The notes under the pieces: generated by a model
What the model was told of the DNA's origin: nothing
The model's database searches: none
The model's input: only the letters and a program-made list of their open reading frames with translations
Shown here: one piece after another, positions 4,404 through 22,045 of the stretch
Layout of the letters: the number at the start of each line of letters is the position of its first letter
How positions within the stretch are numbered: the first letter of the stretch is position 1
Assembly (NCBI GenBank): GCA_945862285.1
Contig: CAMAYN010000019.1
Coordinates: 1-32,910 of the forward strand
Direction of reading: 5' to 3'
Length of the DNA: 32,910 bases
Source of the DNA: Akkermansia muciniphila
GTDB taxonomy: Bacteria; Verrucomicrobiota; Verrucomicrobiia; Verrucomicrobiales; Akkermansiaceae
Made by a program: the position numbers and the translations under genes

Positions 4404-4733
4404 ACTGTAATGCTATACGAGGCAAGAAAGATCTTTATTCGATATTTTTCTGCGGAGTTTCTTTAATTTTTCCTCGATAGTAAGTTTTCTTTGCGAAGCT
4501 GACGTACGCAGTGTGGCGCGCTTATGTAGAGGAAATCTATCGACACTACGGAGTTCACTCCTACGTAGACAAATAAAGCGGTTTTCCATCGGCAACGGCG
4601 AGGATTGACCTCGGGCTCCCATCTTCCCCCCTAATTTGGAAGGGTGACGGATTCGTGTAAAATTGTTTCGATTCACTTTAGCACTTGTCTCTATGAATTT
4701 TACCGCGCATTCTCATCTACCACATTTGACTCC
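4404..4733. other. Intergenic region between divergent genes
   Basis: This 330-bp gap separates the minus-strand DUF4407 gene from the plus-strand PEP-CTERM gene. I see no convincing gene: the open frame at 4413-4676 on the minus strand is basic, low in complexity and resembles nothing I know. The gap contains a small imperfect hairpin at 4546-4568 (CTACG...CGTAG and GAGT...ACTC arms with a 3-base bulge) and a promoter-like pair described separately. It should hold promoters for both flanking genes. Confidence 0.5.
4636..4663 (+). promoter_or_regulatory. Possible promoter of the PEP-CTERM gene
   Basis: TTGGAA at 4636-4641 and TAAAAT at 4658-4663 are 16 bp apart, a sigma-70-like pair about 70 bp before the ATG at 4734. 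The match is moderate and was found by eye only. Confidence 0.25.
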
Positions 4734-5381
4734 ATGAAATACATCAAACTACAATCCTTGATCCTTCCTTTCCTTGTTACTGCTAAAATAAGCCACGCTG
4801 CAGTGATCGTGAACGGCTCATTTGAAGATCCCGTTGTAACTGTAGGCTCGTATGAAGCATACGGACATGCCTCTACGTCCATCACAGGCTGGACTGTGAT
4901 TAACCAAACCGCCATTGTATCTGGATCAGCTTCGGAAGGCGCAATCACTTGGAATGCCCAGATAGGAAACGCCTGGCTTGACCTAACTGGAGAAAACTCC
5001 ATCACAAGCTATGGCATCACGCAAACGATCAGCACCGACATAGGTCAGGCATATCAGTTGAGCTTTTATGTAGGATCAGTCACTGATGGTGTAAATTACT
5101 TCCCTTCAACGGTAGATTTGCAAATCGGCGCAGGAGCAAGAATTGGCTACCACAATCTGAATGCGCCGACGACGAATCTAGATTGGCAACAATTCACGGT
5201 GGATTTCACAGCTACGGACTCCTCTACCGCGATTTCTTTCTATAATGGCAATACATCTTACAATAATGTATCAGCACTCGACAATGTATCCATCACAACC
5301 ATTCCTGAGCCTAGCGTTGCAGGCTTGGCGATTTTATCATTATTCGCGGCAAAATTGATCCGCAGACGCCAATCAGACTGA
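4734..5381 (+). CDS. Secreted PEP-CTERM surface protein with DUF642-like / choice-of-anchor C domain
   Basis: The product is 215 residues from the ATG at 4734, which puts a signal peptide (residues 1-22, ending SHAA) at the N-terminus; an in-frame extension to 4644 would bury it and is rejected. The mature part begins VNGSFEDP and continues with GWTV at 52-55, AWLDLTG at 80-86 and a 'GITQTIST...YQLSFYVG' stretch at 94-114, the pattern of DUF642 / choice-of-anchor C beta-sandwich domains, which often bind carbohydrate. The C-terminus has PEP at 191-193, a hydrophobic helix and RRR at 210-212, the PEP-CTERM sorting signal. By family knowledge it is recognised by an exosortase and delivered to the cell surface or exopolysaccharide; no exosortase gene is in the window. 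It appears to be a single-gene unit, with a repeat array downstream. Confidence 0.88.
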   Translation: MKYIKLQSLILPFLVTAKISHAAVIVNGSFEDPVVTVGSYEAYGHASTSITGWTVINQTAIVSGSASEGAITWNAQIGNAWLDLTGENSITSYGITQTISTDIGQAYQLSFYVGSVTDGVNYFPSTVDLQIGAGARIGYHNLNAPTTNLDWQQFTVDFTATDSSTAISFYNGNTSYNNVSALDNVSITTIPEPSVAGLAILSLFAAKLIRRRQSD

Positions 5382-5561: not shown

Positions 5562-5813
5562 ACAAATGCCAGTGACAAAACTTTCACCGGCATAAATCGT
5601 TCGACAAATGCTAGTGACAAAACTTTCACCGGCATAAATCGTTCGACAAATGCTAGTGACAAAACTTTCACCGGCATAAATCGTTTGACAAATGCTAGTG
5701 ACAAAACTTTCACCGGCATAAATCGTTCGACAAATGCCAGTGACAAAATTTTAACAGGCATAAATCGTTCGACAAATGCCAGTGACAAAATTTTCACGGC
5801 GTAAATGATTTGC
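5562..5813. repeat. Tandem array of six 42-bp hairpin-forming repeats
   Basis: Six head-to-tail copies start at 5562, 5604, 5646, 5688, 5730 and 5772 with no spacers. The unit begins ACAAATGCCAGTGACAAAAC and ends ATAAATCGTTCG. Copies 2 and 4 are identical and copy 3 differs from them by one base; copies 5 and 6 have several changes, and copy 6 loses a base. Each unit contains an inverted pair, ATGCC(A/G)GTGA and its complement TCACCGGCAT, separated by an 8-base loop, so every copy can form a stem. In copy 1 the one mismatch would be a G-U pair in minus-strand RNA. The array sits in the 482-bp gap between two genes that converge on it (PEP-CTERM plus strand, lipoprotein minus strand). A repetitive 79-residue minus-strand frame crosses it, with a 14-residue period, but this follows from a stop-free unit length divisible by three. 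Confidence 0.95.
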
Positions 5814-5863: not shown

Positions 5864-6439
5864 TCAACCGGGAAATGTGACGCGATTTTCGGACGACTTC
5901 GAACGGGCAAAGGATCGGGTTCCTCTGGTGCCGTTGCTGTATCGATAGGTTACATCCTTGTCGGAAATGGCCGTTACGTATGCATTTTCGTAGTCCGTTT
6001 CAGACGGCTGAATTGTAGGCAGTTCTAAATAATGATAGATCAGTTCATCATCAATCACCTGCACGAGGAGATAGTTGGAGCAGGGGGCGCAATCATTAGG
6101 AACGATCTCTTGAATCAACAAAGAGTTGCCTGTCGCGCTTGCATAAATGGATATAAAATCAGACAGCTTATCATTTGGGCTAGAAAAACTGTCGGAAGAC
6201 AGAGCACTTTCTAGCACAAGGGAACTGAGATGAGTAAATTTTGCTAATTTTCTCTCGATCCGGTAGCAGGAAAACGAACGATGTTTTTCCTCAGTATTTG
6301 CATGAGGGCCAGCTTGAAATGATACCGAAAACGGCGCTACTTTCCATGTGGCTGACGTATTTTTCGGAGCAGCCTGGGGGATCGACGCACAACTGGAAAA
6401 AAACAGTAAGGACAGTAGAGAAAATAGGAGATGACGCAT
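5864..6439 (-). CDS. Predicted lipoprotein of unknown function
   Basis: The 191-residue product starts with a short hydrophobic signal and a lipobox-like FSSC with Cys at 17, so it is probably lipid-anchored in the envelope. The remainder is a soluble domain of mixed composition with two close cysteines (DCAPC, around residues 116-120) and a polar C-terminus. I do not recognise the family. It lies 14 bp downstream of glmM on the same strand and may be its last co-transcribed gene, although nothing ties it to cell-wall synthesis except position. The 42-bp repeat array begins about 50 bp past its stop and would be in the 3' end of its message. Confidence 0.7.
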   Translation of the reverse strand: MRHLLFSLLSLLFFSSCASIPQAAPKNTSATWKVAPFSVSFQAGPHANTEEKHRSFSCYRIERKLAKFTHLSSLVLESALSSDSFSSPNDKLSDFISIYASATGNSLLIQEIVPNDCAPCSNYLLVQVIDDELIYHYLELPTIQPSETDYENAYVTAISDKDVTYRYSNGTRGTRSFARSKSSENRVTFPG

Positions 6440-18963: not shown

Positions 18964-19005
18964 CTTGACACAATTCAGCCAGATTTGTTCATTTGCGCAG
19001 CTACC

Positions 19006-21096
19006 ATGACGGGCGAACGCAAAATCATCCTCTCCGCTCAGGAGGCATTGAAACAGTTTTTCGGCTTCGATCAATTTCTCGATGGCCAAGAAGAAGTCGT
19101 CGCGAACATTCTCGCGGGTAGAGATGGCCTCGTCGTCATGCCCACAGGGGGCGGAAAATCGCTGTGCTACCAACTCCCCGCTCTCTGCCTAGAAGGTGTC
19201 ACCCTTGTCGTTAGTCCCTTGATTGCGCTGATGAAAGACCAGGTCGATGCCTTGGTTAATAAAGGCATTGCCGCGACGATGATCAATTCCACGCTGACGT
19301 GGGAAGAGCAAAAAGAACGTCTGCGCGGCATTCGCGATGGTACATGGAAACTCGTTTATGTCGCCCCCGAACGATTCCGCGCCGAGAGTTTCCTTAATGC
19401 CCTCGAAGGCGCAAAAATCGAACTTTTCGCCGTCGATGAAGCCCACTGCCTCAGTCAATGGGGGCACGACTTCCGTCCGGATTACCTTCGCCTCGGCAAG
19501 GCACTCGAAAAAATTGGCCGCCCGCAATGCGTCGCCCTCACCGCCACCGCCACGCCAATCGTGCGCGAGGACATCACCAGCGTATTGCAGTTGCGCGATC
19601 ACTTTGAAATGGTCAGCGGCTTTTCCCGCCCGAATCTTTCTCTCAACATTACCTCCACGGAAAATGTTCTAACCAAAGAAGAGCGCATGAAGGCGATCAT
19701 CACCGCTCATCGCACCGGCATCGTCTATTGTGCGACGCGGAAAAAAGTCGATGCCGTTTCTGAAACCCTGCATAGCTGGGGGATCAAATGCGTTGCCTAC
19801 CACGGCGGCATGAGCGATGACGAACGCGCCCGCGCCCAAGATATTTTTATTAGCCGCCGCGCCGATGTCGCCGTCGCTACCAACGCCTTTGGCATGGGCA
19901 TTGACCGCGCCGATGTCCGCTTCGTCATTCATTACGAAGTCCCGGGCAGCATCGAGGCCTACTACCAAGAAGCAGGACGCGCCGGGCGCGATGGCGAGAG
20001 TGCCTACTGCGAACTTTTATTCAACTACGCCGATACCCGAACGCAGGAATTTTTTATCGATGGCGCCAATCCCAGCGTTGAGGACATACGGGCGATTTAC
20101 GAATACCTCCTCAACGAGGCCAATCAAGAGCATGAGATCACCCGCACCATCGACGAAATCTCAGAAGGAGCGGAAATGAAAAACTCCATGACGGTGAGTA
20201 GTGCGCTCACTCTTCTGGGCAAAGCAGGATACATCGAACGCTACGACATTCCCGGCAAACGCATGCGCGGCACCCGCCTCCTGCGGCCCGATGTTTTTGC
20301 ACGAGGGCTAAAAATCGATGAAGAAGCCATCCGCGAAAAAGATCGACGCGATCGCGAAAAACTCAAAGCCATGGTGCAAATGTGTTACTCCCACACCTGC
20401 CGGCAAGAATGGATTCTCGAATACTTCGGCGAGGACGATGCGGAACCATGTGGCAACTGCGATGTTTGTCGCAGTGGCACGGCGGGAGAATCGCGCGCTG
20501 CGACCACAGATGAAGATCTCGTCGTGCGGAAAATCCTCAGCGGCGTCGCCCGCATGTCGCGAAAGACTCCAACCGGCTGGGAAGGTCGCTTTGGCAAAGG
20601 AAAAATCCTGCTCATGCTCACCGGCAGTAAATCGCAAGAAATCCTCCAAGCAAAACTCCACACCCTCACCACCTACGGCATCCTCAAGGCCGAAGGCAGC
20701 GGCTACGTCAGTGCCATTATGCGCGCACTCATGGACGCCAACTTGATCGTGACCCAGCAAGGCGAGTTCCCCGTCGTGACTCTTTCCGAGCGCGGCGAAA
20801 AAGTGATGAAAGGCAGCGCCACTTACAAACTCGTCTGGCCGAAATCGCGTCAAGCCGCGCCCGTGGAACTCAAAGACGCCGGCTTCGATCCACAAATTTA
20901 CACCAAACTCCGCGACCTGCGCGCCAAGATCGCCAACGCCGAATCCGTGCCAGCCTACTGCATTTTATCGAACAAAACCCTCGAAGCCCTCTGCCGCTAC
21001 CGCCCGACCAACGCCGATGAATTACTCGCCGTCCCGGGCATCGGCGCCGTAAAAGCGCAACGCTACGGACGCGCCTTTCTGGATGCGCTGCGCTAA
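19006..21096 (+). CDS. recQ: ATP-dependent DNA helicase RecQ
   Basis: RecQ is a 3'-5' helicase used in recombinational repair and fork processing. The 696-residue product (ATG 19006; a TTG at 18985 is in frame but less likely) has Walker A PTGGGKS at 46-52, DEAH at 144-147, an aromatic-rich loop starting SQWGHDFRP, the motif VI segment [10 protein letters not shown], a RecQ-C-terminal zinc site with four Cys (CYSHTC...CGNCDVC), a winged helix and a C-terminal HRDC domain ending with '[16 protein letters not shown]'. The full E. coli-type layout is present, so it is a bona fide RecQ rather than a shorter RecQ-like helicase. It is followed by a 21-bp repeat array and converges with the hicBA locus. 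Confidence 0.97.
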
Positions 21097-21198
21097 ATTG
21101 GCAATACCCAAGCGGCGTCCAGAGCGTCCAGCCTGTGCATGGAAAATTCGCGTTAGGGTTTATCAAAAAAACAAAATTCATAAGCAATTGTGCAAAAA

Positions 21199-21387
21199 TC
21201 AAATGCCAATGTTAAAAGATCAAATGCCAATCCCAAGAGTTCAAATGCCAATCCCAAGAGTTCAAATGCCAATCCCAAGAGTTCAAATGCCATTCCCAAA
21301 AGATCAAATGCCATTTCCAAAAGATCAAATGCCATTTCCAAAAGATCAAATGCCATTCTCAAAAGTTCAAATGCCATTCCCAAAAGT
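21199..21387. repeat. Tandem array of nine 21-bp repeats
   Basis: Nine contiguous copies begin at 21199, 21220, 21241, 21262, 21283, 21304, 21325, 21346 and 21367. All start TCAAATGCCA; the right half varies (copies 2-4 identical, copies 6-7 identical). A much weaker match precedes the first copy. The array sits between converging genes (recQ plus, hicA minus), as does the 42-bp array at 5562-5813, with which it shares the AAATGCCA core. The first half of the 42-bp unit matches this unit at about 16 of 21 positions. All frames are open because the unit is 21 bp; the minus-strand frame gives a heptad-like string of (M/L)AF(E/D)LL. I find no start signal for it. The 431-bp gap from 21097 to 21527 otherwise shows nothing I can identify. 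Confidence 0.95.
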
Positions 21388-21527
21388 TCACTAGCTTACT
21401 TGAAGTTCAAGTGGTGATAAATGGCTCGCAATAGATAGCAAAATTTTTTAGCAGCTTGGGTCGATATTACGCCAAATCATTCTGGCTGAATGCTGCTATG
21501 GATTAAATGCTGCAAATTGGCGTTTTT

Positions 21528-21732
21528 TCACAGTTCATGCTCGGAAATAGGAATGATTTTCATAAGCGACTTCTGTAATCCATCTTTAATATCTTGTTGC
21601 CATGGATTGGAATCACGACGCGCTCCATTCTGCCTTCCATAGTGTAAATGTGATGGCTGCCGTTTACTCTCGCCAAGACCCAACCTTTCTCCTCTGCCAG
21701 CTTGGCATCCTCTTGCCTGTCACAGCCTTCAT
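21528..21732 (-). pseudogene. hicA: hicA toxin gene broken by two single-base frameshifts
   Basis: HicA is a small mRNA-cleaving toxin with a double-stranded-RNA-binding-like fold. On the minus strand the ATG at 21732 opens MKAVTGKRM and then leaves frame near 21705; the HicA core GWVLARVNGSHHIY and VVIPIHGN is read in the next frame; a second shift near 21592 is needed to read the tail KDGLQKSLMKIIPISEHEL, ending at TGA 21528. Restoring one base (a G in each of two GG pairs) gives a continuous 68-residue HicA with the catalytic His in GSHH and a normal length; 205 bp plus 2 equals 69 codons. As written, the toxin cannot be made. The ATG overlaps the hicB stop (ATGA), the standard arrangement. 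Alternative: assembly errors at both sites. Confidence 0.8.
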
Positions 21733-21932
21733 ATCGCCAGCTCAAGGATCTGTTGATCTTTTGTCGATCGTAACTCCTCCTGTCCGGCCGCAAGCCATCC
21801 CTCAATTGCCTCTCGTAAATTCAATTCCAGTTCCTCTTTAGTGTCGCCCTGTGTGACGCACCCTGGCAAGGCGGGAACTTCAGCCCAGTAACCACCTTCT
21901 TCTGCAACATGGAGAATCGCTTTGAATTTCAT
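21729..21932 (-). CDS. hicB: HicB-family antitoxin
   Basis: The 67-residue product has the HicB N-terminal fold: a beta-strand start MKFKAILHVAEEGGYWAEVPALPGCVTQG (quoted in part: GGYWAEVPALPGC), then TKEELELNLREAIEGWL. That is the pseudo-RNase-H fold that masks the HicA active site. It is short and has no visible DNA-binding tail, like many single-domain HicB proteins. The gene precedes hicA, overlapping as ATGA, and is intact while the toxin is frameshifted. A 10-bp palindrome lies 6 bp upstream of its start and could be an operator. Confidence 0.88.
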   Translation of the reverse strand: MKFKAILHVAEEGGYWAEVPALPGCVTQGDTKEELELNLREAIEGWLAAGQEELRSTKDQQILELAI

Positions 21933-21937
21933 GGGAT

Positions 21938-21947
21938 GATACGTATC
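21938..21947. promoter_or_regulatory. Perfect 10-bp palindrome upstream of hicB
   Basis: GATACGTATC is its own reverse complement and begins 6 bp before the hicB start codon (minus strand), a position suited to autoregulation of the hicBA promoter. Short palindromes also arise by chance. Confidence 0.3.
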
Positions 21948-22045
21948 GCAGCACGGCGTAGAATAAAAGCAATTTTTTGTGACTACGTGAAGATATTAAA
22001 AAAACAACATGCACACACATGGAGAGCAAAGAGATCACCAAGCAG

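Follow-up and report, generated by a model that had tools for sequence, protein, structure and literature searches.

Bacterial intergenic minisatellites, VNTR loci among them, are generally known as head-to-tail units that are restricted to particular lineages and vary in copy number beside near-identical flanks. The iteron and partition-site arrays of plasmids consist of helically phased tandem units of ~20-22 bp in which the core is more constant. The Borg tandem repeats, as presented in excerpts of their description, are perfect or near-perfect A-rich units, 14-38% of the intergenic unit lengths being divisible by three, and these excerpts report no 21-bp rule (PMC9879509). Extracts of two other studies document abundant intergenic heptamer repeats without known function (PMC6344855, PMC4679880).

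Here we describe two tandem arrays, with units of 21 and 42 bp, in a 32,910-nt stretch of Akkermansia muciniphila DNA (the window). Our preferred reading, which we hold tentatively, is that the 21-bp array belongs to a lineage-specific, dispersed and helically phased superfamily of minisatellites, whose register is perhaps held by a putative DNA-binding protein.

Anatomy and setting of the window arrays

Table 1. Positions of the two arrays, the genes beside them and a flanking motif in the window
Feature	Coordinates	Strand	Remarks
PEP-CTERM/choice-of-anchor type protein gene	4644..5381	+	left neighbour of 42-bp array; below NCBIfam cut-offs
42-bp array	5562..5806	+	5.9 copies; AATGC[CT] core in first half, inverted GGCAT core in second
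Flank motif TCAACCGGGAAATG	5864..5877	+	one mismatch from motif beside G002 C12 and source-genome C106 arrays
Weak unnamed ORF	5864-6439	-	right of 42-bp array, followed by glmM (-)
recQ-like helicase gene	18985..21096	+	left neighbour of 21-bp array
21-bp array, nine units	21199..21387	+	TCAAATGCCA constant, other positions variable; TRF limits 21193-21390
HicB-like antitoxin gene (hicB)	21732..21971	-	right neighbour of 21-bp array

TRF and a direct listing of the units both bore out the nine 21-bp repeats described in a sequence-only reading of the window (period 21, 9.5 copies, 91% matches, score 256). The 42-bp array scored 420, and the periods of both arrays are multiples of 21 bp, as that reading had stated. 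The nine 21-bp units are arranged head-to-tail, and TCAAATGCCA is invariant in all of them. Neighbouring units are identical in blocks 2-4 and 6-7, which fits local slippage or unequal exchange. The pattern TCAAATGCCAWT occurs nine times in the 3.65-Mb genome, each time inside this array (reversed control pattern, one occurrence); the repetition is far beyond chance. Sub-periodicity of 7 bp is slight, with an identity at lag 7 of 0.33 and 0.29 compared to 0.20-0.31 at other lags, and these values do not support heptamer sub-repeats within the 21- and 42-bp units. A CRISPR array does not fit, given that the spacers recur within each array and that no cas match was found in the 13 distinct window ORFs scanned. 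Tandem units of ~20-22 bp with a constant core, as in iterons, are present in the 21-bp array; no replication initiator gene adjoins it, the neighbours being recQ, hicB, a sulfatase-domain gene and a porphobilinogen synthase gene.

The core common to the two arrays is AAATGC(C/T)A. It is a little looser than the shared core originally claimed, as three of the six 42-bp units carry AAATGCCA and the other three AAATGCTA. Counting by eye, we found 16 of 21 positions matching between the first half of the 42-bp unit and the ninth 21-bp unit, in agreement with the earlier estimate of about 16, and the inverted ATGCCGGTGA in the second half, also as described; the 42-bp unit thus has one direct and one inverted core, not two direct cores. 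Compared directly, the two window units show weak similarity (z 4.1; 1/150 shuffled pairs exceeded 5). The TCAACCGGGAAATG-type flank motif, with two matches in a 1.585-Mb sample of which one is the motif beside the 42-bp array itself, is weak evidence.

Both arrays lie in gaps between converging genes, as the sequence-only reading had pointed out, but the wider sample gives no support for such placement as a rule. Flanking genes are known on both sides for 22 intergenic arrays, of which 12 lie in tandem, 5 in convergent and 5 in divergent gaps, and 5/22 is not distinguishable from the 93 convergent gaps among 740 intergenic regions (p 0.13). For the family defined below by the core AATGCC, four of seven loci with both neighbours known are convergent (p 0.006), a count that includes the two window arrays that prompted the idea and falls to 2/5 (p 0.12) when they are removed; the neighbours of sister-species loci were called with the gene model of the source genome, and the source-genome locus C6 and most loci of the sister species G002 lie outside the orientation count. 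Conserved synteny at the recQ locus was not supported: in G002 the gene after recQ is parA, which tblastn located in no other sister locus examined. Next to the array, on the minus strand at 21551-21731, a hicA-like sequence that follows the intact HicB-like gene appears by eye to be frame-broken.

Periods and relatives across genomes

The source genome comprises 3,648,390 bases in 279 contigs and is 92% complete. TRF was applied to 1,585,198 bases, made up of the window and 80 stretches from the 61 longest contigs (43% of the genome); arrays were retained at a score of at least 80, and the period was taken as the smallest whose score reached half or more of the best. Nearly all intergenic arrays in this sample (24/25) fall at periods of 21-22 or 41-43 bp, the 25 periods being 21 (8), 22 (4), 27 (1), 41 (2), 42 (8) and 43 (2). 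Across 778 intergenic regions, lag 42 was found in 17 and lag 21 in 9, compared to a mean of 0.75 per lag. Periods that are multiples of 21 were also detected for 7 of the 11 coding arrays, with coding and intergenic arrays separated by a simple hexamer gene caller whose coding calls for L189 and L252 are doubtful, their same-unit sister arrays being noncoding. The arrays at L252 (13498-13736) and L255 (17792-18114) are 21-bp arrays of one unit family with a common 139-bp right flank that is 92% identical.

Five sister genomes (G003, G004, G006, G007 and G009; 631,499 bases) gave four intergenic arrays, with periods of 7, 90, 99 and 189, none in the 21-22 or 41-43 range, though 189 is formally 9 x 21. 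This sample is thin: the 60,000 bases from the sister species G004 contained no such array, yet G004 has 42-bp arrays at C14 and C110. In G002 (477,433 bases), the 14 intergenic arrays have periods of 1, 9, 16, 20, 21, 21, 22, 41, 41, 42, 61, 68, 69 and 71, and on this spread the 21/42 rule is weaker there than in the source genome. When 40 units with periods of 20-23 or 40-44 were compared (both genomes, coding arrays included), 20 of 780 pairs exceeded z 5, with 1/150 among shuffled pairs, and two of the 20 are neighbours on one stretch (L254, L170). Most unit pairs look unrelated despite their common period. A general origin of 42 as a doubled 21 was not supported, as doubling is clear only in L164 and L268 and weaker in L188 and L170.

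Scans for the exact core returned little beyond the window. The genome contains 20 pairs of AAATGCYA separated by 8-38 bp (control, 1), 13 of them within the two window arrays and the remaining seven as single pairs elsewhere. No exact-core array was found in the 3.65-Mb genome beyond the two window loci; two cores at 18-21 bp were present in one of 10 genus genomes and three cores at 19-23 bp in one of 387 phylum-level genomes, in each case the window's own. A genome-wide family defined by the exact core is thus rejected. The earlier reading had held that a genome scan returning only these two arrays would count against a family, and this is what we found for the exact core, but not for the degenerate AATGCC family.

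In a search across phyla, arrays of CAAATGCCA were recovered from 84 stretches in genome contigs and 12 in viral contigs; we do not claim them as homologues, since the shared 9-mer was imposed by the search pattern. Among 80 such loci classed, 31 are noncoding, with spacings of 9 (2), 14 (5), 18 (1), 20 (1), 21 (8), 22 (4) and 23 (10), the pattern having admitted only spacings of 18-25 and fractions thereof. Further noncoding arrays within the 84 loci range in period from 12 to 78, 7/23 lying at 21-22 and 2 at 42, and a mild two-turn excess may accordingly be general. At L042, L066, L069 and other Bacteroidales loci, 22-23-bp arrays retain CAAATGCCA while the rest of the unit differs among copies.

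With the core relaxed to AATGCC at an exact 21-bp spacing, we detected three more loci in the source genome (C4, C106 and C6), loci in G002 and G004, and the same pattern in two species of another genus (G497 and G498). BLAST of 10 genus genomes with the 42-bp array of C4, a query that came from tandem-repeat scanning, identified C106 (93%) along with six loci in G002 and two in G004. Two different 15-bp spacers alternate between cores 21 bp apart in the seven family arrays that were read out from AATGCC; the window 21-bp array has one spacer type, whereas most 42-bp family arrays alternate two. Three AATGCC cores at 21-bp spacing were found in 7/260 family genomes and the reversed control, which is poorly matched (613 CCGTAA to 1714 AATGCC in the sample), in 3/260 (G495, G501 and G521). 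Subtracting two genomes with 7-bp repeats (G472 and G479) leaves G000, G002, G004, G497 and G498. The control itself matches 55 times at 21-bp spacing in G501, perhaps through another phased family or a 7-bp repeat. Two cores with one mismatch allowed gave 137 matches in the source genome and 14 for the reversed control; among the matches listed, most are single pairs, and a further array lies at C6 46113-46265. Of 35 collapsed units from all array families, only 6 contain the core, a number that equals the 95% limit for the maximum in shuffles. Outside arrays, AATGCC pairs showed no clear 21-bp preference (3 pairs), and a role as single dispersed sites is not supported.

The window 21-bp array contains eight consecutive exact AATGCC pairs at 21-bp spacing, which places it in the superfamily. 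Its unit, tested as the ninth copy doubled, matches those of source-genome C4 and C106, G002 C59 and C105, and G004 C14 and C110 at 24-26/42 positions (p 0.001 each, the floor of a test against 1000 shuffled units); the comparison with L134 was doubtful (p 0.054), and no match was found with source-genome C49, G002 C40 or G002 C464 (p 0.16-0.34). The window 42-bp unit matches G004 C14 and C110 (24/42; p 0.001 and 0.004, per comparison) and none of the other eight units tried, including C4, C106, G002 C59 and C105 (16-17/42, p 0.75-0.96). The C6 unit matches both window units (p 0.001 for the 21-bp and 0.002 for the 42-bp unit, per comparison). Unit similarity thus supports the proposal that the two window arrays belong to one superfamily, with a link that would run through G004 C14, G004 C110 and C6 as intermediates (p 0.001-0.004, per comparison).

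Core conservation, copy number and alternative explanations

Across nine family arrays, the core departs from the array consensus in 17/498 cells and the rest of the unit in 100/1350 (Fisher 0.0012), a pooled test that counts cells singly when those of one array share a history and are not independent. In a seven-array subset with one range shortened, the values were 8/420 and 79/1050 (Fisher 1.2e-5); once two further arrays and an end unit were included, the rate for the core rose from 1.9% to 3.4%, with the rest steady near 7.5%. The window 42-bp array reverses the contrast (core 2/30, rest 4/180), and G002 C12 has none (6/36 and 15/90). No single array showed a significant conserved block (0/21 at p <= 0.05; 0.21 for the window 21-bp array and 1.0 for the 42-bp array). 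Between seven loci, cores 1 and 2 had identities of 1.00 and 0.86, compared to 0.60 and 0.34 for the spacers. The high core identity is partly built in, since two of the seven units were retrieved by the exact-core pattern alone, and AATGCC was used for the window 42-bp unit when half its copies are AATGCT.

Copy number differs between genomes at a locus of another unit family, whose unit gave no match to that of the window 21-bp array in the similarity test. The source-genome C49 array has six units plus a partial and its counterpart at G007 C33 one unit plus the same partial; the right flanks are 96.7% identical over 1.55 kb, and on the left only ~40 bp outside the array aligns. A 1.55-kb segment with a PDZ-domain gene (L248 9231-10781; L291 1-1556) is 96.7% identical between this species and G007, whose RecQ is only 73% identical, and has possibly been transferred recently.

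Our preferred reading brings together what is directly observed, namely the anatomy of the array, the dispersal of its relatives, their exact 21-bp register and the six-versus-one unit difference in another unit family. A distance of 21 bp is two turns of B-DNA, and the AATGCC core recurs once in every such step, with 15-bp spacers between. Slipped-strand mispairing or unequal exchange would add and remove units in place, and a putative DNA-binding protein, touching one core per two turns on a single face of the helix, could fix the register, much as in iteron or partition-site arrays.

A strong competitor, which we regard as nearly as probable, is that these are neutral minisatellites: a process particular to the lineage would make and expand duplications preferentially at two or four turns, nothing would read the arrays, and the likeness between loci would reflect common descent of copied seeds. 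This explanation accommodates the common period of seemingly unrelated unit families and the identical neighbouring units in the window array. The 21-multiple periods of coding arrays are explicable by a bias in how repeats arise, bearing in mind the doubtful coding calls. A 12-bp near-repeat brackets the one-unit state in G007 and is a possible slippage seed. Phasing of A-tracts, the signature of a curved-DNA element, was not above that of shuffled units (mean z -0.39 and -0.43, 18 units), which does not support curvature and fits neutrality. Neutrality alone does not explain why the core changes more slowly than the spacers, itself a modest result, and our searches of partly accessible literature found no mutational process with a two-turn step. 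For the AATGCC branch, our weighing slightly favours arrays read by a protein over neutral minisatellites biased to two turns, since on the pooled count the core and its spacing are better preserved than the spacers; the argument covers that branch alone and not the other array families. An extended version of the protein-read model, in which the lineage carries genome-wide arrays quantised to two turns, the AATGCC branch docks a putative chromosome-organising or partition-like protein and the other families dock its relatives, seems unlikely to us.

An origin of the arrays in mobile elements, as expanded ends or as internal repeats, is improbable, whether of the REP/RAYT type or like the multi-site transposon ends of IS21, Mu and Tn7 types. 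Three alignments that include part of an array do extend beyond the repeats: 580 bp (84%, G002 C12/C59), 204 bp (86%, source-genome C106/G002 C12) and 452 bp (80%, L252/L255). Y1_Tnp has eight matches in the genome, none in the window contig, and by simple count three have a tandem array within ~1.5 kb (periods 42, 27 and 21), but the units differ. A scan of ten proteins near arrays gave no transposase match, four of them matching nothing, and no flank common to other arrays was found for the window 21-bp array. The flank motif GTCACCTTACAT, with one mismatch allowed, occurs three times in the 1.585-Mb sample and nine times in 477 kb of G002, eight of them in one stretch. Short arrays of period 16, 27 and 21 adjoin Y1_Tnp (RAYT-type) matches at L281, L282 and L284.

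A role at the RNA level, with the arrays transcribed and acting as hairpins or 3´-end signals, is more improbable still. As RNA, either strand of the 42-bp array folds strongly (z -6.7 and -8.3 relative to dinucleotide shuffles of the complete array), and units of the 42-bp class fold slightly better than chance with DNA energies and tandem-preserving shuffles (mean z -0.84, s.e.m. 0.30, 18 units; window array -1.6). Against this, RNA folding of the 21-bp array was no better than that of shuffles (z +2.2 and +1.0), which also speaks against a palindromic REP/BIME unit for this array, and hairpins of the 21-bp class gave a mean z of +0.27 (DNA energies, 22 units). There was no Rfam match at gathering scores, and the lack of a convergent preference noted above does not favour 3´-end signals. 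Finally, the window array almost certainly does not encode protein: a 103-aa ORF with a 7-residue repeat (21083-21394) spans it, but a stop-free frame in one unit stays open across any 21-bp tandem array, and the hexamer score is -0.246 per codon compared to 0.15 to 0.61 for well-scoring window genes.

Comparison with known systems

Full-text searches, with most subscription papers outside their reach, returned no description of a genome whose tandem arrays are quantised at 21 and 42 bp. The 21-bp array resembles iteron and partition-site arrays in its ~20-22-bp tandem units, constant core and helical phasing and differs in that many arrays are dispersed here, and neither a rep nor a par gene was seen next to those in the window. 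Like the Borg repeats, as far as the excerpts of their description go, the arrays are limited to a lineage, lie in both genes and gaps and change rapidly (PMC9879509). They share their abundance between genes with the intergenic heptamer repeats, again judged from extracts, but their units measure 21 or 42 bp and show slight 7-bp sub-periodicity (PMC6344855, PMC4679880).

Sister species rich and poor in such arrays provide a natural contrast. Either something reads the DNA two turns at a time at numerous sites on the chromosome, or repeats arise and expand with a two-turn step. The minisatellites and VNTR loci with which we began share the head-to-tail intergenic units, the variation in copy number beside near-identical flanks and the restriction to a lineage; the difference here is that 24 of the 25 sampled arrays stand at two or four turns and related units with a core every 21 bp recur at many loci. 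It is usual to classify tandem arrays by sequence, whereas the property common to these arrays, across units that look unrelated, is a length of two or four helical turns.
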